Below, piece after piece: positions 10,079-33,703 of a stretch of 33,703 nt of DNA (position 1 is the stretch's first letter; the number at the start of each line of letters is the position of its first letter). Both the position numbers and the translations under genes were made by a program. The stretch lies in contig JAUWXQ010000003.1 in the NCBI GenBank assembly GCA_030616305.1, positions 1 to 33,703 of the forward strand. The letters run 5' to 3'. The DNA comes from Hadesarchaea archaeon (GTDB taxonomy: Archaea > Hadarchaeota > Hadarchaeia > Hadarchaeales > Hadarchaeaceae). The notes beneath the pieces were generated by a model. That model was not told the DNA's origin. It made no database searches and saw only the letters and a program-made list of their open reading frames with translations.

Positions 10079-11632
10079 GTGTTTCTGGGATTGAAGTTGG
10101 ATCTCCGCGCAATCATCGAGGGGCTGAGCTTCCAAGAGAAGAAAGTCCTCATTACGCTCCAAGAGCTCGGGGGGGGAGCGGGAGCCACAGATCTTGCTAG
10201 ACGGATCAGCCTTAACCAATCAACAGTAATGCGAGCTGCCCTCGGCCTATCAGAACGTGGACTGGTAGAAACGCAGGAGAGAAAGTTTTCAAAAGCTATC
10301 CTTCTTCTTGAGGGCCAAGAGTATGCACGCGATAGATTGCCTGAGCGACGGATGCTCGTGACATTGGCTGGCTGCGGCTCGGAATCCATCGAGGAAATAG
10401 CCGCTCGTGCGACTCTGAATGAAGAACAAAAACGTATAGCCCTCACATGGCTCAAGCGCAGAGGCTGGGCCGAATTTCTCAAGCGGGAGGGGAAGACCTT
10501 CTTGACCTTAACAAGGAGGGGCGATGCTGCCCTATCGCGAAAGACCGCCGATGAGGTGCTGATTGAGTTGCTCGCCGTTGAAGAGCGCAACGTTGACGGG
10601 CTGTCCGTGGACACGAAAGAACCACTCCGCATTTTGGTGGGACGTGGACTGGTGAAAATCGATGAAGAAACCAGACGTGAATTGGAGCTCACCCCGCTCG
10701 GAAAGCAGGTTTTAGAACAAGAGATCGAACTCGTGGAGGAGGTAAGCGAGCTAACCCATGAGCTCCTGACGAGCGGGCGGTGGCACAAGGCCAAATTTAG
10801 ACGCTACGATGTCGTTGCCCCTGGCACGCCGATTTATCCGGGGAAGGTCCACCCGCAGCAACAGGTCATAGATGAGCTTAGGGAAATATTGCTGGAGATG
10901 GGGTTCGTTGAGATAAGGGGAAAAATCGTTGAATCCGAGTTCTGGAATTTCGACGCCCTCTTTCAAGCCCAAAACCACCCCGCCCGCGAAATTCATGACA
11001 GTCTGTCCCTCTCGAGACCGGAGCAGACAAAGTTGCCCTCAACCGCGTTGGTCAGACGAGTAGCCACGGCGCACGAACGGGGCATCCCTGGGTCAACGGG
11101 CTGGGGTTACAAGTTCAACGTTGATATAAGCCGAAGACCTGTGCTGTGCTCACAGACGACTGCAGCGACCGTCCGCTACCTGGCCTCACACCCCGAGCCG
11201 CCAGCGAAGGTCTTCTGCATAGGCCGCACTTATCGTCACGAAAAAATAGACTACAAACACCTCGCCGAGTTCTACCAGGCTGAGGGCATCGTGATGGACC
11301 CGGATCTGACGTTGCGCGACATGCTCGGGTATCTGAAACAAATTGTGATAAAACTCGGCCTCCCCAAAATAAGGTTCAGGCCTGGCTACTTCCCCTACAC
11401 AGAGCCGAGTGTTGAAGCAGACGTATACTTTCCCGAAAAGCGCGAGTGGCTGGAGGTTCTTGGAGCAGGAATGTTTAGGCCGGAACTGTTAAGGCCTCTC
11501 AATATCCACCACCCCGTGCTTGCGTGGGGAATCGGGTTCTCGCGACTAGCCATGATCAGGCTCGGGATTGATGACATCCGAGACCTCTACCGGAACGATG
11601 TAGAGTGGCTCCGTAGCAGGAGGATGGTGTAA
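10079..11632 (+). CDS. pheS: Phenylalanyl-tRNA synthetase alpha subunit, archaeal type
   Basis: 517 residues as annotated. The N-terminal third consists of winged-helix DNA/tRNA-binding-like units typical of archaeal/eukaryotic PheS (LNQSTVMRAALGLSERGLVE; LTRRGDAALSRK). The class II catalytic core has motif 2 (FCIGRTYRHEKIDYKHLAEFYQ) and motif 3 (GIGFSRLAMIRLGIDDIRDL), plus HPAREIHDSLSL and FRPGYFPYTEPSVEAD. It charges tRNA-Phe as an (alpha-beta)2 enzyme with PheT, encoded 2 bp downstream. The GTG start at 10079 is the track call; TTG at 10091 is an alternative because of the TATA position. All core motifs appear intact. Confidence 0.95.
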   Translation: MFLGLKLDLRAIIEGLSFQEKKVLITLQELGGGAGATDLARRISLNQSTVMRAALGLSERGLVETQERKFSKAILLLEGQEYARDRLPERRMLVTLAGCGSESIEEIAARATLNEEQKRIALTWLKRRGWAEFLKREGKTFLTLTRRGDAALSRKTADEVLIELLAVEERNVDGLSVDTKEPLRILVGRGLVKIDEETRRELELTPLGKQVLEQEIELVEEVSELTHELLTSGRWHKAKFRRYDVVAPGTPIYPGKVHPQQQVIDELREILLEMGFVEIRGKIVESEFWNFDALFQAQNHPAREIHDSLSLSRPEQTKLPSTALVRRVATAHERGIPGSTGWGYKFNVDISRRPVLCSQTTAATVRYLASHPEPPAKVFCIGRTYRHEKIDYKHLAEFYQAEGIVMDPDLTLRDMLGYLKQIVIKLGLPKIRFRPGYFPYTEPSVEADVYFPEKREWLEVLGAGMFRPELLRPLNIHHPVLAWGIGFSRLAMIRLGIDDIRDLYRNDVEWLRSRRMV

Positions 11633-11633
11633 C

Positions 11634-13271
11634 ATGCCATCAATCACCGTCAGCTACCACGATCTCTGTAGGCTACTCGGCAAGCGAGTAGAGCAGAAGA
11701 AATTGTGCAACCACTTGTCGATGATGGGAATCGAGGCCGAGGCGGCAGGCGACGAAATCAAGTTGGAGGTCTCACATAACCGCCCGGATTTGCTAAGCCC
11801 AGAGGGAGTCGCTCGCGCGTTGAGGGGTTTCTTAGGGATAGAGGTGGGGTTGCCTAGTTATGGACTTCGTGCATCTGGTGTCACGGTTGAGGCCGATCGT
11901 AGCGTCAAGTCCATCCGCCCCTACATTGCCGCGGGCGTGGTTACCGGTGTCAGGTTAACCAACGATGTGGTCACTGCGCTCATGCAGGTCCAAGAGAAGC
12001 TGCACGCGTCTCTCTGCAGAAACCGCCAGAGGGGATCGATAGGAGTCTACGACCTCGACACCATCACGCCACCCATCCGCTACACCACCACCTTGCCTGA
12101 TGGTATTCGCTTCGTCCCCCTAGATTTCGGTCGTGAGCTGACCTCCGCCCAGATCCTCCACGAGCACCCGAAGGGAATTGAGTACGGTGCGATAATACAA
12201 AATTTACCTCGATATCCTCTGCTCATCGATTCGCGTGGTGTCGTGCTTTCGATGCCGCCGATCGTCAACAGCGAAGATACGCGTGTCACAGAGAACACGA
12301 AGGAATTTTTCATCGACGTCACAGGTCAAGAAGAGCGCGTAGTCAATCAAGTATTAACGATTTTGATGACTGGACTTGCCGAGCGTGGATTCAAACTCAA
12401 GTCGGTCGTGGTTAAATACCCAAGCAAGCGAATTCGTGCACCTGATCTTACCCCTCAGAAATGGCGCTTGAGCGCACACAACGCGAACAAAACTATAGGA
12501 CTCAAACTGATGCCTGGGGAGATCGCCAAAATCGCCAAGAAGATGCGTTACGGGGTGGCCAAAACAAGGGGCGATGTTCTGACGTTGCTTGCCCCGCCGT
12601 ACCGAACCGACATCATGCATGAGGTAGATTTGATTGAGGATATAGCGATAGGCTACGGTTACGACCGCTTGGAGCCCACGCTGCCGAAGGTCTTGACGAC
12701 TGGGAAGCGGGCCCCTATTGAGAAGATTAGCGACAAGACCAGACGGGTTCTGACGGGACTGGGATTCATGGAGGCGATGACTTATACCCTCACGAACCCA
12801 CGCGTGAGCTTCGAGCTAATGCGGAAGAAAGGTGAGGCAGCAGAGATCGCGAATCCTGTGTCGGAGGAGTACACAATAATCAGAAACTCGCTGCTTCCAT
12901 CACTCCTCTCAGCCCTGCGGGAGAACCGACGCAACCCGTTGCCCCACCGGATTTTTGAAGTCGGAGATGTCGTGGTGTTAGACGAAAAGGCGGAGACCGG
13001 GACGAGGAACGTGCGTCGTGCAGCGGCGGCGGTGATAGGTGATAACCTCGGATTTACCTATATCAAGGCCGCAGCGGAAGCCCTGCTACGGGAACTCGGC
13101 GTCGCTTGGGAAGTTCACACGGCACGGCACCCGAGCTTCTTAGATGGCCGTGCCGCCGAGCTGACGGCAGGGGACAAGCGCTTAGGGGTAGTGGGGGAGA
13201 TCCACCCAGAAGTCATCCTCGGGTTTGAACTTGAGCATCCAGTAGCAGTGTTCGAGATTGACTTAGAGTAA
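11634..13271 (+). CDS. pheT: Phenylalanyl-tRNA synthetase beta subunit, archaeal type
   Basis: 545 residues, the length expected for the short archaeal/eukaryotic beta subunit that lacks the bacterial N-terminal tRNA-binding domain. An N-terminal domain (ITVSYHDLCRLLGKRV; LEVSHNRPDLLSPEGVARALRG) is followed by the B3/B4 editing domain around residues 90-250 (SIGVYDLDTITPPIRYTT; INSEDT-type VNSEDTRVTENTKEFFIDVTG), the B5 domain (residues about 270-345, PPYRTDIMHEVDLIEDIAIGYGYD) and the catalytic-like module (residues about 355-545, FMEAMTYTLTNP; NPVSEEYTIIRNSLLPSLL). ATG start 1 bp after the pheS stop. Converges on spt4 with a 24-bp gap and no separate terminator beyond short A/T tracts. Confidence 0.95.
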   Translation: MPSITVSYHDLCRLLGKRVEQKKLCNHLSMMGIEAEAAGDEIKLEVSHNRPDLLSPEGVARALRGFLGIEVGLPSYGLRASGVTVEADRSVKSIRPYIAAGVVTGVRLTNDVVTALMQVQEKLHASLCRNRQRGSIGVYDLDTITPPIRYTTTLPDGIRFVPLDFGRELTSAQILHEHPKGIEYGAIIQNLPRYPLLIDSRGVVLSMPPIVNSEDTRVTENTKEFFIDVTGQEERVVNQVLTILMTGLAERGFKLKSVVVKYPSKRIRAPDLTPQKWRLSAHNANKTIGLKLMPGEIAKIAKKMRYGVAKTRGDVLTLLAPPYRTDIMHEVDLIEDIAIGYGYDRLEPTLPKVLTTGKRAPIEKISDKTRRVLTGLGFMEAMTYTLTNPRVSFELMRKKGEAAEIANPVSEEYTIIRNSLLPSLLSALRENRRNPLPHRIFEVGDVVVLDEKAETGTRNVRRAAAAVIGDNLGFTYIKAAAEALLRELGVAWEVHTARHPSFLDGRAAELTAGDKRLGVVGEIHPEVILGFELEHPVAVFEIDLE

Positions 13272-13295
13272 TGCCACAACACAAAATTTTACACG

Positions 13296-13481
13296 TTACC
13301 TAACTTTCAGCGCATATTTTCCAGGCTTGGTGATATTGAGACGCTTCGCGATTTCGGAGTTATCGGGTTCAAGCACCACAACGTAACCGGTCCAATCATT
13401 TGAGAGGGATGCCCCACCACAGTTCGGGCAAGTGTTTGCTTCGGTGAGGAGGTTACAATTGCGGCATGCTTTTTCCTTCAA
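13296..13481 (-). CDS. spt4: Transcription elongation factor Spt4 (RNA polymerase subunit E'')
   Basis: About 61 residues: KEKACRNCNLLTEANTCPNC at the N-terminus gives a four-Cys zinc site (CxxC...CxxC), followed by the SNDWTGYVVVLEPDNSEIAKRL core strand-helix that pairs with Spt5 NGN. The Spt4/5 complex clamps RNA polymerase for processive elongation. The ORF track starts 11 codons upstream inside rpoE'; TTG at 13481 in a TTGA overlap with the rpoE' stop gives the canonical short N-terminus and has an AAGG site. In many euryarchaea S24e and S27ae genes follow; here the strand ends in a convergent junction with pheT. Confidence 0.95.
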   Translation of the reverse strand: MKEKACRNCNLLTEANTCPNCGGASLSNDWTGYVVVLEPDNSEIAKRLNITKPGKYALKVR

Positions 13482-14032
13482 GCCTTCGCCCCCTTGCGGG
13501 CCTCCTCGATCCACTCCAGTTTACCAAGCCCTGGCTGTCGCATGGTCAAGCCTATCTTCCCGCCTTTCGTGCCGCGCTTCAGGCTCACGCTCACTATGCG
13601 GGCCCTAACCTTGTCTCCCTCCTTGAGCAAGCGCTTTGACTCCTTTCCGTAAAGGGCACCTTTTTTCTTGTCATAACCAACGAAATCGTCCATCACCTGA
13701 GAAACATGCGCGAGCCCGTCGATTGGCCCCAGACGAACGAACCCTCCAAACTCCACAATCTCAACAACTTCGCCAAGCACGACCTCATTGACCTCGGGCT
13801 TGTAGATGAGCGCCTCGAAAGTTACGTCGTGGTAGCTGGCGCCATCACCCATTATCACCCTGCCGACCCCGACCTCTTTGAGCTCAGTAATCGCTAAGAT
13901 TGTCCCAACATCTTTGTCTGTCAACCCCTGGTAATCCTTGCGGATGACGTCGATAATGACCTCGTTTGTTGGTTCGGAAAACCTATTAGGGGGCACGCGG
14001 ACTGTGTCCTCCACGGTCACTATCTTGTACAT
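13478..14032 (-). CDS. rpoE1: DNA-directed RNA polymerase subunit E' (Rpo7)
   Basis: About 184 residues. An N-terminal RNP-like domain (MYKIVTVEDTVRVPPNRF, ending DVGTILAITEL) precedes an S1 RNA-binding domain (about residues 80-165: VLGEVVEIVEFGGFVRLGPIDGLAHVSQV). With Rpo4 it forms the polymerase stalk that binds emerging RNA and helps open the promoter. The track starts at GTG 14035, but ATG at 14032 has GAGG 7 nt upstream. That ATG shares one base with the TGA stop of a short upstream frame, implying translational coupling to a gene in the hppA-rpoE' gap. Overlaps spt4 downstream by 4 nt. Confidence 0.95.
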   Translation of the reverse strand: MYKIVTVEDTVRVPPNRFSEPTNEVIIDVIRKDYQGLTDKDVGTILAITELKEVGVGRVIMGDGASYHDVTFEALIYKPEVNEVVLGEVVEIVEFGGFVRLGPIDGLAHVSQVMDDFVGYDKKKGALYGKESKRLLKEGDKVRARIVSVSLKRGTKGGKIGLTMRQPGLGKLEWIEEARKGAKA

Positions 14033-14251
14033 CACTTCACCTCAATTTTTGTAATTTTCATCATGCGGGCTATCATCTTATGTGTAACCTCCTCGCACGG
14101 CATTGGAATACCTTTCTCCTTTCCCTTCAACTCCTTATAAACACAGAAGAAACGTGCGACTCTTTTACCAGACGGACTACCTCCAAGCCCTTTACCCGGT
14201 AAAATGAGGCGGCCTTTTATCTAGCTTTATGTCTTTCTTAATATCTATCAT
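14032..14251 (-). pseudogene. Small basic ORF split by a single frameshift between hppA and rpoE'
   Basis: An ATG 1 nt after the hppA stop, with GGGGCGG upstream, opens a 19-codon frame (MIDIKKDIKLDKRPPHFTG) that ends in TAA at 14192-14194. A second frame, shifted by +1, is open from before this point to TGA at 14032-14034, which overlaps the rpoE' ATG. It reads GLGGSPSGKRVARFF ... PCEEVTHKMIARMMKI and has no good start of its own. Removing one base near TTTACCGGGTAAA would fuse both into one basic protein of about 72 residues that fills the gap with tight junctions on both sides. Sequencing error, true decay or programmed +1 shifting are all possible. I do not recognise the protein. The frames are seen; the fusion is inferred. 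Confidence 0.45.
14191..14203. repeat. Perfect palindrome TTTACCCGGTAAA
   Basis: Six bases on each side of one central C are exact complements. It coincides with the place where the two frames of the small ORF meet and contains the TAA stop. With a one-base centre it cannot form a hairpin unless it opens further; an operator-like site or chance are the alternatives. Confidence 0.4.
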
Positions 14252-14252
14252 T

Positions 14253-16265
14253 TCATCCGCCCCAGACTTTTAACAGGAGTGGGACGAACAACAGGGCAGC
14301 CATTGACATCAGCTTGATCAAGATGTTGAGAGACGGACCTGAGGTGTCCTTAAACGGATCCCCTACGGTGTCCCCTATCACGGATGCCGCGTGCGTCTCG
14401 CTTCCCTTTCCACCCAAGTGTCCTTCCTCGATGTATTTCTTTGCGTTGTCCCATGCCCCCCCGGCGTTCGCAAGGGTTATCGCTAACAAGAGCCCTGTGA
14501 CTATCGAGCCCACCAGCAGGCCACCCAGAGCCTCCACACCAAGGATGAGACCAACTACAATCGGGCTGAGGATAGCCAACGCGGCCGGGAGAGCCATGTT
14601 TTTAAGGGCAGCGGAGGTGCTGATCCCTATACACCTGTTGTAATCCGGCTTCGCTTTTCCCTTCATCAACCCGGGGATAGTCCGGAACTGCCGTCGTACC
14701 TCTCCCACAATCAGGGACGCTCCCTTGCCCACCGCACGCATGGTGAGCGCGCAGAACAAGAATGGCAACATCCCCCCTATGAATATCCCAACGATAACCT
14801 TTGGGTCCATGATGTTGAGTGTTTGGATATTCACCGCTTGAGTATATGCGAAAAACAACGCTAGCGCAGTAAGGGCAGCTGAACCGATCGCGAACCCTTT
14901 ACCTATCGCAGCGGTGGTGTTCCCGACTGCATCGAGCCGTTCCGCGCGAACCCTCGTGGTCTTTCCCATCTTGGCCATTTCGGCTATCCCTGCCGCATTG
15001 TCGGCCACGGGACCGTATGTGTCTGTGGCAAGCGTTATCCCAAGCGTGCTCAACATGCCGACCGCTGCAATCGCTATTCCGTAAAGCGCTGCGAAGTAAT
15101 ATGCCACAAGGATCGCCACGGATAGCGCTATGATTGGAACCACCGTGCTCAGCATCCCTACAGAAAAACCGCTGATGATATTGGTCGCAGGGCCCGTCTG
15201 CGAGGACACGGCAATAGATTTCACAGGAGAAAATCTGTTTTCAGTGTAATACTCCGCTGAGATACCAATCAAAATCCCAGCGATAAGCCCGGCCAGCAAC
15301 GCGTAAAATATCTCAATTGCGCCAACGAAAAACCAGATAAGGAAAAACGACGCTGCCGCCATCAAGAAAGCGCTCCCGAATACCCCCTTGTTGAGGGCCA
15401 TGTGAAGGACCTTTATTCCTGCACCCTTCCCTGTCCGCACGAAAAATGTTGCCACGATCGAACAAAATATCCCGACCGCAGCAAGTAACATGGGAAGCAC
15501 CACGGCATCTGTCTGGCCCAGCGCGACGCCTCCTACGGTGACCCCCATGAAACCGATTACCATCGCAGCGATAATCGACCCCACGTACGACTCGAAAAGG
15601 TCTGCCCCCATCCCGGCGACATCCCCGACGTTGTCGCCCACGTTGTCTGCGATCACAGCTGGATTTCGCGGGTCATCCTCCGGGATTTTAGCTTCGACCT
15701 TTCCAACCAAGTCTGCACCCATGTCCGCCGATTTTGTGTAGATGCCGCCGCCTACCCGCGCGAAAATAGCTATCGAACTTGCCCCAAAGCCAAAGCCAAC
15801 GATTATCTCAGGGTTCCCAAACAGAAAATAGAAGATGCTCACGCCAAGAAGTCCAAGCCCGACAACGCACATCCCCATCACCGCACCGCTTGAAAAACCA
15901 ACCTTTAACCCCTTCCCGATGCTTTTCCTAGCGGCTTCTGCTGTTCGGGCGTTTGATTTAGTAGCTACCCTCATTCCAACGTTGCCAGCCAGCGCCGAGA
16001 AAAATGCCCCTACCACGAAAGCTATGGCGGTGGGATAGTTCACAACCAGTGCCAAAATCAATGCCACGATGACTGCGTAGACTACCATCACGCGATATTC
16101 TTTGTTGAGAAAAGTCATGGCCCCGCGGTAGATGATGTCCGAAAGTTCCCGCATCCGCGCTGTCCCGGCGGGCTGTCGTAAAATCCTGAAAGCGAGGTAC
16201 CCTGCGAACACGAGGGCTATCGCACCAGCTATCGGAGCTAGCATCGCGGGCTCGAATTCAAACAT
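14253..16265 (-). CDS. hppA: Membrane-bound proton/sodium-translocating pyrophosphatase
   Basis: About 670 residues with some 15-16 hydrophobic segments. Hydrolyses PPi and pumps H+ or Na+ across the membrane. Catalytic signatures are ADMGADLVGKVEAKIPEDDPRNP and ADNVGDNVGDVAGMGADLFES, TDTYGPVADNAAGIAEM, and GDTVGDPFKDTSGPS near the C-terminus. GNTTAAIGKG has Ala and Gly where K+-independent enzymes carry Lys and Thr, so a K+-dependent enzyme is expected; the pumped ion is not settled. ATG at 16265 is preferred over GTG 16268 because GAGGT sits 6-7 nt upstream. It lies inside an aIF2g-PIN...RpoE'-Spt4 operon, an unusual place for an ion pump, perhaps linking PPi disposal to RNA and aminoacyl-tRNA synthesis. 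Confidence 0.96.
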   Translation of the reverse strand: MFEFEPAMLAPIAGAIALVFAGYLAFRILRQPAGTARMRELSDIIYRGAMTFLNKEYRVMVVYAVIVALILALVVNYPTAIAFVVGAFFSALAGNVGMRVATKSNARTAEAARKSIGKGLKVGFSSGAVMGMCVVGLGLLGVSIFYFLFGNPEIIVGFGFGASSIAIFARVGGGIYTKSADMGADLVGKVEAKIPEDDPRNPAVIADNVGDNVGDVAGMGADLFESYVGSIIAAMVIGFMGVTVGGVALGQTDAVVLPMLLAAVGIFCSIVATFFVRTGKGAGIKVLHMALNKGVFGSAFLMAAASFFLIWFFVGAIEIFYALLAGLIAGILIGISAEYYTENRFSPVKSIAVSSQTGPATNIISGFSVGMLSTVVPIIALSVAILVAYYFAALYGIAIAAVGMLSTLGITLATDTYGPVADNAAGIAEMAKMGKTTRVRAERLDAVGNTTAAIGKGFAIGSAALTALALFFAYTQAVNIQTLNIMDPKVIVGIFIGGMLPFLFCALTMRAVGKGASLIVGEVRRQFRTIPGLMKGKAKPDYNRCIGISTSAALKNMALPAALAILSPIVVGLILGVEALGGLLVGSIVTGLLLAITLANAGGAWDNAKKYIEEGHLGGKGSETHAASVIGDTVGDPFKDTSGPSLNILIKLMSMAALLFVPLLLKVWGG

Positions 16266-16290
16266 CACATTACCTCAGAAATTTCAACCT

Positions 16291-30366: not shown

Positions 30367-31194
30367 CTATTCTATCCACTCATGGGTGATAAACGTCACT
30401 TCTCCATTCTCGTCGAGCGTGGCTGTGCCGTGGCCCCAGAGATCGACAGGATACTCAACATACCCATCGTAATAATTGAAGGTGTACGAGCCATCGGTTT
30501 TGACAATCCCGAATGGAACGATTTTGTTGACGTTAAAGTGGCCAAGATGGTCCTGGGCGTAAGGGGAGGTCACGTCTTTCAAGACGATAGTAGACATCGC
30601 TTGGAGCTCATCGCTCGTAGTCGCGGTGTACTCGTTTTCCACGGTTATCGTGCCCGTTGTCTGGTTGTAGATGAACACTATGGACTTTTGGTCACTCACA
30701 ACAACTCCGGTGGCAAAGTTTTCGTTCTCAACTCGCTCGGACGGGACGCAGAAGTAAACCTCCACATTGTCGGTGGAGACACTCTCTCGTGTGGCAATGA
30801 CGCTTTTGATTGCTGCCAGTGGCATCGCAACCTCTTCGGCCTTTAAGCTAATTTCACTGACTTGTAAGTCTTGAGTTCCCAGCTGAATGGTTGCGTTATA
30901 ACTTTCATAACCTGACTTGCTAACGGACAACGAATAACTCTTGTTGCCCTCCAGACCAGTAAACTCAAAATAACCATCAGAATTAGTTGTGGTCGATTCC
31001 CCGTCCAGCGTTACGGCGGCGCCAGACAGAGCGACGCCATCGGTTTTCACGTAGCCAGATATTTTGTATGTATCTGCAGTGGGCGTAACATACTGCATAC
31101 CCAAGTAAACTGCTACCACGGAAACAATTACAATGACAACAACTGCGCCTGTAACAGCGCCTATTATGCGACCGGCTATAGTTTCAACCTCCAA
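30367..31194 (-). CDS. Single-pass surface protein with carboxypeptidase-regulatory-like domain
   Basis: 275 residues. After about ten residues comes a hydrophobic segment (GAVTGAVVVIVIVSVVAVYLG) that fits an uncleaved signal anchor. A CarboxypepD_reg-like beta-sandwich follows (residues about 42-115: YKISGYVKTDGVALSGAAVTL, SDGYFEFTGLEGNKSYSLSVSKSGYESY). The last 150 residues (CVPSERVENENFATGVVV ... DLWGHGTATLDENGEVTFITHEW) I do not recognise. The start is TTG, on a nearly leaderless message from a TATA-like TTTAAA at 31214-31219. It lies downstream of, and codirectional with, the caspase-like gene, and upstream of enolase. An exposed membrane-anchored protein is inferred; function unknown. 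Confidence 0.75.
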   Translation of the reverse strand: MEVETIAGRIIGAVTGAVVVIVIVSVVAVYLGMQYVTPTADTYKISGYVKTDGVALSGAAVTLDGESTTTNSDGYFEFTGLEGNKSYSLSVSKSGYESYNATIQLGTQDLQVSEISLKAEEVAMPLAAIKSVIATRESVSTDNVEVYFCVPSERVENENFATGVVVSDQKSIVFIYNQTTGTITVENEYTATTSDELQAMSTIVLKDVTSPYAQDHLGHFNVNKIVPFGIVKTDGSYTFNYYDGYVEYPVDLWGHGTATLDENGEVTFITHEWIE

Positions 31195-31213: not shown

Positions 31214-31219
31214 TTTAAA
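31214..31219 (-). promoter_or_regulatory. TATA-like box of the single-pass surface protein gene
   Basis: TTTAAA within CTATTTAAACAATT, about 22 bp before the TTG codon at 31194, so the message would be essentially leaderless. Confidence 0.4.
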
Positions 31220-31254: not shown

Positions 31255-33703
31255 TTACATGTTGAATGAGTTTGCGGCGTCCCCATCGAACTCTTGAGGC
31301 GCATCGTTGCCGCTGTATGGGTAGTTCGCTGAGGCCCAGGTAAATGCCTGCTCCGCGGTGGCGAAGCCTTGGCCCACTAGCCCACGCTCCAGGAACCAAT
31401 ACGTCCAAGCACCGTTTTGATATGCGGACTGATCGTAGCCATAGCCAGCAGGCCCGCATGTAGTGTTCATGTATCGATTCGTCTTATTCGCGCCAGCTTG
31501 ATTCACAGCTGCATCCATCCCACCAGAGTGGCAGGAGTCGAAGAACACGAAGAGCTTGCCGTCGTAGCCCGACACCAAACTCTGCAGTTCCGAACCGGTG
31601 AAGTATCCGGTCCCTGACCAACCAGCATCATATGTGCAGTATGCGTGGGCGTCTCCCGGCGAGGAATCAGTCCCGTGGCCCGAAAAGATGAGGACTAGCG
31701 TGCCATCAGAGCCCGCTTGAGTTGCTGCATTCGTTATCGCCGCCCGGATATTCGCCTCGGTAGCCTGAGAATCCGTGAGGAAGGAGCTTATCGTGTATCC
31801 CTGCCCGACCAAGTAGTTCCTCCAGTCTTGAGCATCGTTCACACAATATCGTAAATCATTAATGTATGCGTAATCGTTTATCCCAAAGATGACCGCGACT
31901 TTGTTAGATGGCGTGACCGGCACCGCTGCCCCAGTCTCCACCTGGTCGACGGTGAATCCGTAATCCGTAACCGAGCCGTCAGTGACCAACCTGATTATTA
32001 CCGTGCTTCCGTCCACCCATGAGGTCCACTGGTCACGGTAGCTTCCAGTGTAGCTCTCTATGAAGTTGTTGTTCTCGTCGTAGATGTACACGTAGTCCCA
32101 GTTGCTTTCCGCATCCAGTTGAGTGAAGTGTGCCCTGATTCGACCTACCCCGGAACGGGTAATGGTCCAAGTCTGGTCGAAGTTGTTCGCGTATGGGTGG
32201 GCAGATTCCGCCAAGGCGCCAGCGGTCGATACCGAGACGTTGAGTGAGTAAGTTCCAGAACCGTTGTAGCGGTGGACACGAATGTAGTGGACGCCCGCGG
32301 AGGTCGTATCGTGGGAAACTGTGTCGGTCTGGCTCCCGCCGAGAATAGAATAATCAACCCGTGATTGGCTCGAATCGTAGAGGTAAAGGTCGAAGTCGGA
32401 GCCAGATGGAGGTACTAAGGTAGCGCTTATTGTAGCACCAACCGACCCAACTTGAACCTTGTAGTAGTCGTCCGTGTCAGTTTCATCCACATAGCCTGTG
32501 CCTGTACCAGTACTGATCATCATGGCATGGGCAAAGCTATCACCTGCGTCTTGGCCGGAGTTCCAGTCGTTCTGGGCAGCTGCTGCAGCGCCGCTGACAG
32601 TGACGGTCATCGAGTAAATCCCAGAGCCGCTCCATTGGTAAACGTAAATGTAGAAGTAGCCCGAGGCGGAGGCTGTTCCTTCAACAGAATCGGTCATGTT
32701 ACCACCATAGGTGGAGGAGTCGACATAGGACTGGTCCGTGTCGTAGAGGGAGAGGTCGAAGTCGGCACCGGAAGGTGGCGTCATGCTCACGGTCACGGTC
32801 TGGCCGCTTGAGACCGCGATCTTATAATAATCGTCTGTGTCTGTCGAGTCGATGTATCCGGTGCCCGAACCTGCTGGGATCGTCGTGGCAATGCTCAGTG
32901 AGTCACCGGCATCCATGCCCGTGCCCATATCGTTTTGAGCCGTTCCACCGGTGACAGTGACGGTCATCGAGTAGATGCCGGAGCCGCTCCACTGCTCGAC
33001 GTAGATGTAGAAGTAACCCGAGGTGGTTGCGGTTCCAGTGACTGAATCGGTCTGGCTTCCGCCGTAGGCTGAGGAGTCAACATAAGATAGACTAGAGTCG
33101 TAAAGGGTTAGATCAAAGTCAGAGCCAGAGGGTGGCGTTAGGTCTGCACTTATCGTCTGCCCTGCACCAACGTTGACTTTGTAGTAGTCTGCAGGGTCTG
33201 TGTCATCGATGTAGCCCACACCCGAACCTGCGGGGATCGTCGTGGCGGCGCTCAGAGAGTCTCCAGCATCAGTTCCCGTGCCCATGTCGTTCTGGGCCGT
33301 TCCTCCTGTGACAGTAATGTTTAGGGCATAAATTCCAGAGCCCGACCACTGCTCGACGTAGATATAGAAATAGCCGGATGAAGTGGCGGTTCCTTCAACA
33401 GAATCGGTCTGGCTTCCGCCATATGAGGACGAGTCGACATACGACTGATCCGTGTCGTAAAGGGTGAGATCGAAGTCAGAACCGTATGGAGGCGTTGAAC
33501 TAACACTAATTGTCTGGCCGCTCGAAACGCTTACCTTGTAATAATCTGCAGTGTCCGTGCTGTCGATATAACCCGTTCCTAAACCAGCGCTTATCTCAGT
33601 CGCCGTACTCAGCGAGTCACCCGCATCAGTGCCCGTGCCCATGTCGTTCTGGGTAGCCCCGCCGCCAGTGACCGTGACGGTCATCGAGTAGATGCCGGAG
33701 CCG
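31255..33703 (-). CDS. Large secreted caspase-like (C14) protease with PPC repeats, 5' end outside window
   Basis: At least 815 residues; the frame stays open to the window edge, so the track's start (33684) is an internal Met. From the N-terminus: the end of one PPC-like domain, four PPC domains of about 119 residues each (NDMGTGTDAGDS ... WSGSGIYSMTVTVTGG; track residues 13-491), a CUB-like beta domain (about 500-585, SNWDYVYIYDENNNF), then a C-terminal peptidase C14/metacaspase-type domain (about 594-809) with the catalytic dyad His in LIFSGHGTD (about 670) and Cys in FFDSCHSGGM (about 718). The Asp two residues before Cys is usual in metacaspase/orthocaspase proteins that cut after basic residues. 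PPC domains mark exported proteases, so a signal peptide is expected beyond the edge. The target is unknown. Confidence 0.85.
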   Translation of the reverse strand, partial: GSGIYSMTVTVTGGGATQNDMGTGTDAGDSLSTATEISAGLGTGYIDSTDTADYYKVSVSSGQTISVSSTPPYGSDFDLTLYDTDQSYVDSSSYGGSQTDSVEGTATSSGYFYIYVEQWSGSGIYALNITVTGGTAQNDMGTGTDAGDSLSAATTIPAGSGVGYIDDTDPADYYKVNVGAGQTISADLTPPSGSDFDLTLYDSSLSYVDSSAYGGSQTDSVTGTATTSGYFYIYVEQWSGSGIYSMTVTVTGGTAQNDMGTGMDAGDSLSIATTIPAGSGTGYIDSTDTDDYYKIAVSSGQTVTVSMTPPSGADFDLSLYDTDQSYVDSSTYGGNMTDSVEGTASASGYFYIYVYQWSGSGIYSMTVTVSGAAAAAQNDWNSGQDAGDSFAHAMMISTGTGTGYVDETDTDDYYKVQVGSVGATISATLVPPSGSDFDLYLYDSSQSRVDYSILGGSQTDTVSHDTTSAGVHYIRVHRYNGSGTYSLNVSVSTAGALAESAHPYANNFDQTWTITRSGVGRIRAHFTQLDAESNWDYVYIYDENNNFIESYTGSYRDQWTSWVDGSTVIIRLVTDGSVTDYGFTVDQVETGAAVPVTPSNKVAVIFGINDYAYINDLRYCVNDAQDWRNYLVGQGYTISSFLTDSQATEANIRAAITNAATQAGSDGTLVLIFSGHGTDSSPGDAHAYCTYDAGWSGTGYFTGSELQSLVSGYDGKLFVFFDSCHSGGMDAAVNQAGANKTNRYMNTTCGPAGYGYDQSAYQNGAWTYWFLERGLVGQGFATAEQAFTWASANYPYSGNDAPQEFDGDAANSFNM
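32212..33648 (-). repeat. Four tandem PPC-domain repeats, first two exactly 357 bp
   Basis: Units at 33648-33292, 33291-32935, 32934-32572 and 32571-32212. The first two are each exactly 119 codons, the third 121; the first three are very alike, while the fourth is diverged. Part of a further unit (GSGIYSMTVTVTGG) lies at the window edge, so the array continues outside. This is in-frame domain duplication. Confidence 0.85.

Follow-up and report, generated by a model that had tools for sequence, protein, structure and literature searches.

Few caspase homologues have been recorded in archaea, and they tend to be treated as death proteases acting inside the cell. The locus described here raises the question of what such a protease does when it is predicted to leave the cell on a long repeat scaffold, and whether another gene works with it. 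The window, that is, the whole stretch of DNA analysed, is a complete contig of 33,703 bp (G000:C51) from a Hadarchaeota MAG of 877 kb in 58 contigs, the archaeon being one of the deep subsurface. The closest named relatives of its C14 domain come from Hadesarchaea and Candidatus Hadarchaeum, and the surrounding genes were identified with Pfam as archaeal housekeeping genes, namely enolase, ribosomal protein S2, Memo and an amino-acid kinase that is probably isopentenyl phosphate kinase. Relatives and neighbours thus agree with the archaeal host assumed in an earlier note on this DNA. Contamination or chimerism was rejected, as close orthologues occur in other Hadarchaeota and the enolase/S2 neighbourhood is also found in genome G013. 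A defence island was also rejected, as no defence genes were seen among the neighbours examined; surface turnover, defence and cell death, which the earlier note had suggested, are thus possible roles beside neighbours of the housekeeping kind. With PADLOC, the caspase model hits the catalytic domain (1.3e-16) and does not match the neighbouring partner protein described below; among the neighbours, no defence-system partner genes of the kind that define an anti-phage caspase system were seen.

The features of the protease gene and of its partner are listed in Table 1. The PPC-CUB-C14 order read in the earlier note is reproduced by Pfam, which finds four full PPC domains (E = 8.9e-18), a CUB domain (2.5e-05, above its cut-off) and a C-terminal Peptidase_C14 domain at residues 601–737 (8.1e-18) of the open frame. 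The PPC repeats start at residues 19, 138, 257 and 378, with a period of 119–121 aa, and residues 1–18 are the tail of at least one additional PPC. The PPC scaffold is poor in basic residues, with Lys and Arg making up 1.4% of it (7 of 490 aa) vs. 7–15% of five other proteins in the window, which would fit a scaffold that resists its own Arg/Lys-cutting protease. Ser/Thr/Asp-rich secreted repeats are often poor in Lys and Arg, and the scaffold of one relative (L028) contains 11.5%.

Table 1. Features of the protease and partner genes in the window; aa positions refer to the open protease frame.
Feature	Position	Strand	Basis or remark
Exported caspase-like (C14) protease gene (export predicted), 5′ end past contig	31255..33702	-	open 815-aa frame; Pfam PPC x4, CUB, Peptidase_C14
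C-terminal end of further PPC repeat, cut by contig end	33649..33703	-	GSGIYSMTVTVTGG... as in the ends of the other repeats
PPC repeat 1	33292..33648	-	119-aa period; 75–80% identity to repeats 2 and 3 (repeats 1–3 mutually so)
PPC repeat 2	32935..33291	-	Pfam and repeat comparison
PPC repeat 3	32572..32934	-	Pfam and repeat comparison
PPC repeat 4, diverged	32218..32571	-	53–59% identity to repeats 1–3
CUB domain	31948..32199	-	PF00431, 25 bits, cut-off 21.4; kept in three orthologues
C14 catalytic domain, extreme C-terminus	31258..31911	-	PF00656; metacaspase sequence matches; caspase fold
S1-pocket Cys-x-x-Asp, aa 620–623	31834..31845	-	matches TbMCA2 Cys92/Asp95 (PMC4357240)
S1 Ser, two residues ahead of catalytic His	31681-31683	-	alignment
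Catalytic His, aa 676, SGHG	31675..31677	-	invariant in alignment of relatives
S1 Asp, two residues ahead of catalytic Cys	31537-31539	-	alignment
Catalytic Cys, aa 724, DSCHSG	31531..31533	-	Cys invariant in alignment of relatives
TTTAAA, TATA-like, ~19 nt ahead of partner TTG start; possible own promoter	31214..31219	-	read from sequence
Partner gene: single-pass membrane protein, CarboxypepD_reg and new ~150-aa domain	30367..31194	-	directly downstream of C14
Partner C-terminal domain, no known family	30370..30834	-	no Pfam/NCBIfam/PDB match; model pLDDT 85, alpha-beta4-alpha-beta4

Sequence searches with the C14 domain return metacaspases, the best match being 9.5e-20 with a profile. A structure model of the CUB-C14 portion has a mean pLDDT of 82.7, with most of the C14 part above 85, and a Foldseek search with this model retrieves GSU0716 (E = 7e-12) and yeast Yca1 (8e-10) as well as MALT1 and caspases, which bears out the proposed caspase fold as one of the metacaspase/paracaspase type. 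The GHG motif and the catalytic Cys are invariant across an alignment of 26 relatives. The S1 pocket of TbMCA2 is formed by Cys92, Asp95, Ser156 and Asp211 (PMC4357240), and these residues align with C23, D26, S77 and D125 of the C14 domain. His and Cys, which the earlier note had described as intact, are in register with those of solved metacaspases along with the S1 Asp residues. Neither of the two results that the earlier note had named as refuting its reading, a fold other than that of caspases or catalytic residues out of line with C14 members, was obtained. This register predicts cleavage after Arg or Lys, and not after Asp. The Pfam C14 match ends at position 140 of the 233 profile positions, so that only the p20 part is matched; past the catalytic Cys the structure model continues with a strand-helix-helix-strand succession, which bears on the question of a p10 part. 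For the protease, dN/dS is about 0.12. Its assignment as a cysteine peptidase of family C14, in the metacaspase-like branch, is well supported, and activity is predicted.

As the frame is open at the contig end, the N-terminus of the protease must be sought elsewhere in the genome. The only other PPC-like site lies at the right end of contig G000:C40, where an open-ended ORF (L006 1012-1698, + strand) encodes a signal peptide, a domain of ~120 aa that lacks a Pfam match, and a PPC that is cut off after its beginning. Exact copies of the terminal 31 bp of C40, and of the 30 bp with which the minus strand of the window opens, occur within the PPC array of the window. Short-read assemblers typically break in such repeated stretches, and in G010 and G013 the orthologous contigs likewise stop inside a PPC repeat. 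The ORF on C40 is very probably the N-terminal piece of the C14 protein, the join itself being inferred. Joined in this way, the complete protein would be ~1,090 aa or longer with at least five PPC repeats, and the signal peptide on this probable N-terminal piece predicts export of the protein, as the earlier note had supposed. Its proposal that the upstream contig be consulted thus yielded a candidate piece with a signal peptide, whereas the repeat number is obtained as a minimum.

The earlier note had also regarded the position of the PPC domains ahead of the protease as unusual. This did not hold up, and we reject the layout as a unique feature. In Thermoplasmata and Methanomassiliicoccales, C-terminal C14 domains are found behind PPC, PKD or Fn3 domains (L029-L036, L123). 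These proteins start with either a signal peptide or a zinc-ribbon segment and a TM helix, and the C14 domain of the Thermoplasmata PPC-C14 proteins is C-terminal and predicted to lie outside the membrane. Matching C14 domains occur in 20 of 400 genomes of the Thermoplasmata class. PPC domains are thus present, in four copies, as in PPC-bearing secreted peptidases, and they precede the peptidase both here and in L029-L036 instead of lying C-terminal to it. Of the PPC-CUB-C14 order that the earlier note had wished to see searched for in archaea, the PPC-before-C14 part recurs and the CUB domain was seen only in the Hadarchaeota orthologues. Archaea thus repeatedly carry exported C14 peptidases of this type, with the catalytic domain at the C-terminus and a beta-sandwich scaffold that varies.

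Two further C14 proteins from the Hadarchaeota genomes differ from this type. The one in G003 (L023 1328-3160) ends in a tail of the CHU_C (type IX-like) kind and looks bacterial although it was binned with Hadarchaeota; its contig is possibly a contaminant, and this protein was left out of the analysis as a different one. In the Hadarchaeota genome G020, a protein of 2643 aa combines a C14 domain with LysM, SH3_3, CARDB, transglutaminase and SNase domains (L021 5385-13313 / L027 4811-12739). LysM and bacterial SH3 domains are unexpected for an archaeon that lacks peptidoglycan.

The more informative feature of the locus, which the earlier note did not mention, is the gene directly downstream of the protease. 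Its product has a single TM helix near the N-terminus, and its C-terminal domain of ~150 aa matches no family in Pfam, NCBIfam or PDB sequences. A Foldseek search with the modelled domain against PDB and viral structures gave no significant match (best E = 0.016). Further down the list come latexin, phytocystatin and YpmB (E = 0.09–0.19), and the alpha-beta4-alpha-beta4 arrangement resembles two cystatin/PepSY-like halves; we do not claim such a composition, as the halves lack mutual sequence similarity. In these searches the partner showed no significant match in sequence or fold to a known inhibitor family, and it was not found on phages, plasmids or viral contigs. It contains conserved basic residues, namely a helix-end Arg/Lys and the Lys of KIVP. 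The partner is under purifying selection (omega ~0.15–0.18) and evolves faster than C14 (dN of 0.21 vs. 0.07, L018/L019).

The partner domain was surveyed in 28 Hadarchaeota genomes and more than 400 genomes of the Thermoplasmata class. It is present in 5/28 Hadarchaeota genomes, where a C14 gene always lies immediately upstream, and in 1/400 genomes of the Thermoplasmata class (L040; partner match 2.7e-16, behind a C14 remnant). All six full-length copies thus directly follow a C14 gene, and a probable truncated seventh does likewise: in L028 a lipoprotein-like ORF that shares the NVIGVIVENRTSLVLYW-type motif lies behind C14 and reaches the contig end, and is probably a truncated partner. The most divergent pair, in G001, has a C14 of only ~45% identity and a Glug/PKD scaffold, and has lost the Asp before the catalytic Cys (GSC). 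In a maximum-likelihood tree the partner-linked C14 domains form one clade of 8 rows from two phyla (support 97/95), whose sole member lacking a partner is the G020 fusion protein. The gaps between the two genes are short in L018, L019, L020 and L040. In the window, the TATA-like box ahead of the partner gene means that co-transcription of the pair may not be assured.

The genes flanking the pair differ between loci: enolase/S2 (window and G013), GluRS (G010), Rpb7/PheRS (G015), thiC (G001) and purH (L040), which gives five or six distinct neighbourhoods. The pair of G015 is flanked by the Rpb7 side and by PheRS. The same block of PheRS and Rpb7/H+-pyrophosphatase is present in the window at 10079-16268 with only ~30 bp at the site of the G015 pair, and the window's own pair lies ~15 kb away beside enolase. 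The two genes thus relocate as a unit.

In two of the loci the protease gene is broken and the partner frame is open. The orthologous C14 gene of G015 (L020 5928-7385; one PPC, CUB and C14) has three in-frame stops, one ahead of the PPC and two at conserved Trp codons. In L040 (6817-7730, Thermoplasmata AUK260) the N-terminal half of the C14 gene is missing and the remainder contains frameshifts, and an intact partner follows a few nucleotides later. The stops and frameshifts could partly be assembly errors in the MAGs; if they are real, the two loci look as expected for an immunity or inhibitor gene that has been retained. The association of protease and partner is well supported. As the partner accompanies the C14 protease from genome to genome, it probably has a dedicated role as regulator, inhibitor or target of the protease, a role suggested by genomic context.

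Taken together, we think it rather probable that the pair is a two-gene module for proteolysis at the cell surface with a membrane-anchored cognate partner. The first gene would encode a protein with a signal peptide, the ~120-aa N-terminal domain, at least five PPC repeats, the CUB domain and the C-terminal catalytic domain. The PPC repeats and CUB may act as a stalk or ligand-binding scaffold, by which the exported protease would be tethered or spread at the surface, and the catalytic domain would cut after Arg or Lys. The second gene product, a single-TM protein (lipoprotein-like in one relative) whose outer domain belongs to an undescribed family, would bind and control the protease on the surface of the producing cell. 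It could be an inhibitor or immunity protein, which we favour, an adaptor or a cognate substrate, and both genes are inherited and relocated together. Domain order, fold, active-site register, co-occurrence, adjacency, relocation and the single clade are computed results, whereas export of this protein, its P1 specificity, physical interaction and inhibition are predictions. The more specific proposal, that the partner is the first member of a new inhibitor family (membrane-anchored, cognate immunity proteins) within a co-mobile surface protease/inhibitor module of Hadarchaeota and Thermoplasmatota, is tentative and, in our estimate, less likely than not.

A different reading is that the protein is a nutritional exoprotease with which a heterotrophic sediment archaeon degrades detrital protein after Arg and Lys, the partner being a surface protein for substrate binding or peptide capture. 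Sediment Thermoplasmata (MBG-D) do carry extracellular clan CD peptidases of families C11 and C25, and C14B transcripts have been reported among the expressed peptidases (PMC6461988); exo-enzymes commonly bear PPC, PKD and Fn3 scaffolds, and the partner has a CarboxypepD_reg domain. We nevertheless regard this reading as rather unlikely, given that the pair is patchy (5/28 genomes) and mostly present in one copy per genome, and that a dedicated partner from a single rare family is kept where the protease is broken. The same open partner frames are less expected if the partner were purely a dedicated substrate or signal, whose cleavage at the surface would free the outer domain or trigger a response, as in site-specific surface proteolysis or a cell-death trigger. 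The membrane anchor, the outer domain, the constant position beside the protease and the conserved basic residues all suit such a substrate, but the partner lacks a visible cytosolic signalling domain, and we consider this explanation unlikely.

Orphan partners next to broken proteases would instead be at home in contact-dependent or diffusible antagonism, in which neighbouring cells would be the target of the exported protease and the partner would confer immunity on the producer. A co-mobile two-gene unit common to two phyla, anchoring on the producer side and the Lys/Arg-poor scaffold point the same way. A repertoire of orphan immunity genes and nearby toxin-delivery genes are both missing, the catalytic domain is well conserved and not polymorphic, and an ordinary secreted enzyme would look alike, which makes antagonism distinctly improbable. 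The pair could finally be neighbours by descent, with a partner that has nothing to do with proteolysis; the independent loci are few, the contigs short, and the partner is known from MAGs only. This we disfavour as very improbable, since the pairing is kept in five or six neighbourhoods in two phyla with every full-length copy beside C14. The surface module with a cognate partner is thus the reading that we retain.

Archaeal caspase homologues have been treated in general (PMC3501461; PMC6426788), including 93 archaeal sequences in a 2019 survey that all had an intact dyad (PMC6426788); a description of the exported C14 branch or of the partner was not found in the open-access literature. With the metacaspases of MEROPS C14B (T. 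brucei MCA2, yeast Yca1, Arabidopsis MCA-II) the protein shares the caspase fold, the His-Cys dyad and the four S1 residues of MCA2, but it is an archaeal protein on a PPC/CUB scaffold, predicted to be exported, lacks a long p20-p10 linker and carries its catalytic domain at the extreme C-terminus. Prokaryotic orthocaspases likewise combine a p20-type C14 domain with extra domains; most of those studied are bacterial, whereas the archaeal protein is predicted to be exported and has a co-encoded membrane-anchored partner. The closest solved structure by Foldseek, Geobacter GSU0716 (PDB 3bij), is small and lacks the PPC/CUB scaffold. The TM-PPC-PKD-C14 proteins of Thermoplasmata and Methanomassiliicoccales (L029, L032-L036) have a 35–43% identical catalytic domain, PPC in front and a predicted location outside the membrane, but differ by a zinc-ribbon-like N-terminal segment with a TM anchor and a PKD domain in place of CUB, and no partner gene was found with them.

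The staphopain/staphostatin and Bacteroides C10 pairs, in which an adjacent gene encodes a dedicated inhibitor of a secreted cysteine protease (PMC3462683), resemble the present pair in that a small dedicated gene lies directly beside an exported cysteine protease, an arrangement seen in 6/6 full-length partners. Those proteases are papain-like in fold and their inhibitors are cytoplasmic and beta-rich, in contrast to the membrane-anchored and sequence-unrelated archaeal partner.

With its co-mobile partner the locus holds more of interest than the earlier note described, and the pair is a directly testable protease/regulator system. Should the partner indeed inhibit the protease, C14 peptidases would have gained a new family of protein inhibitors. 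The intact active site of this exported branch, with its predicted preference for basic residues, and the dedicated partner anchored in the membrane point to a function of these archaeal caspase homologues at the cell surface.
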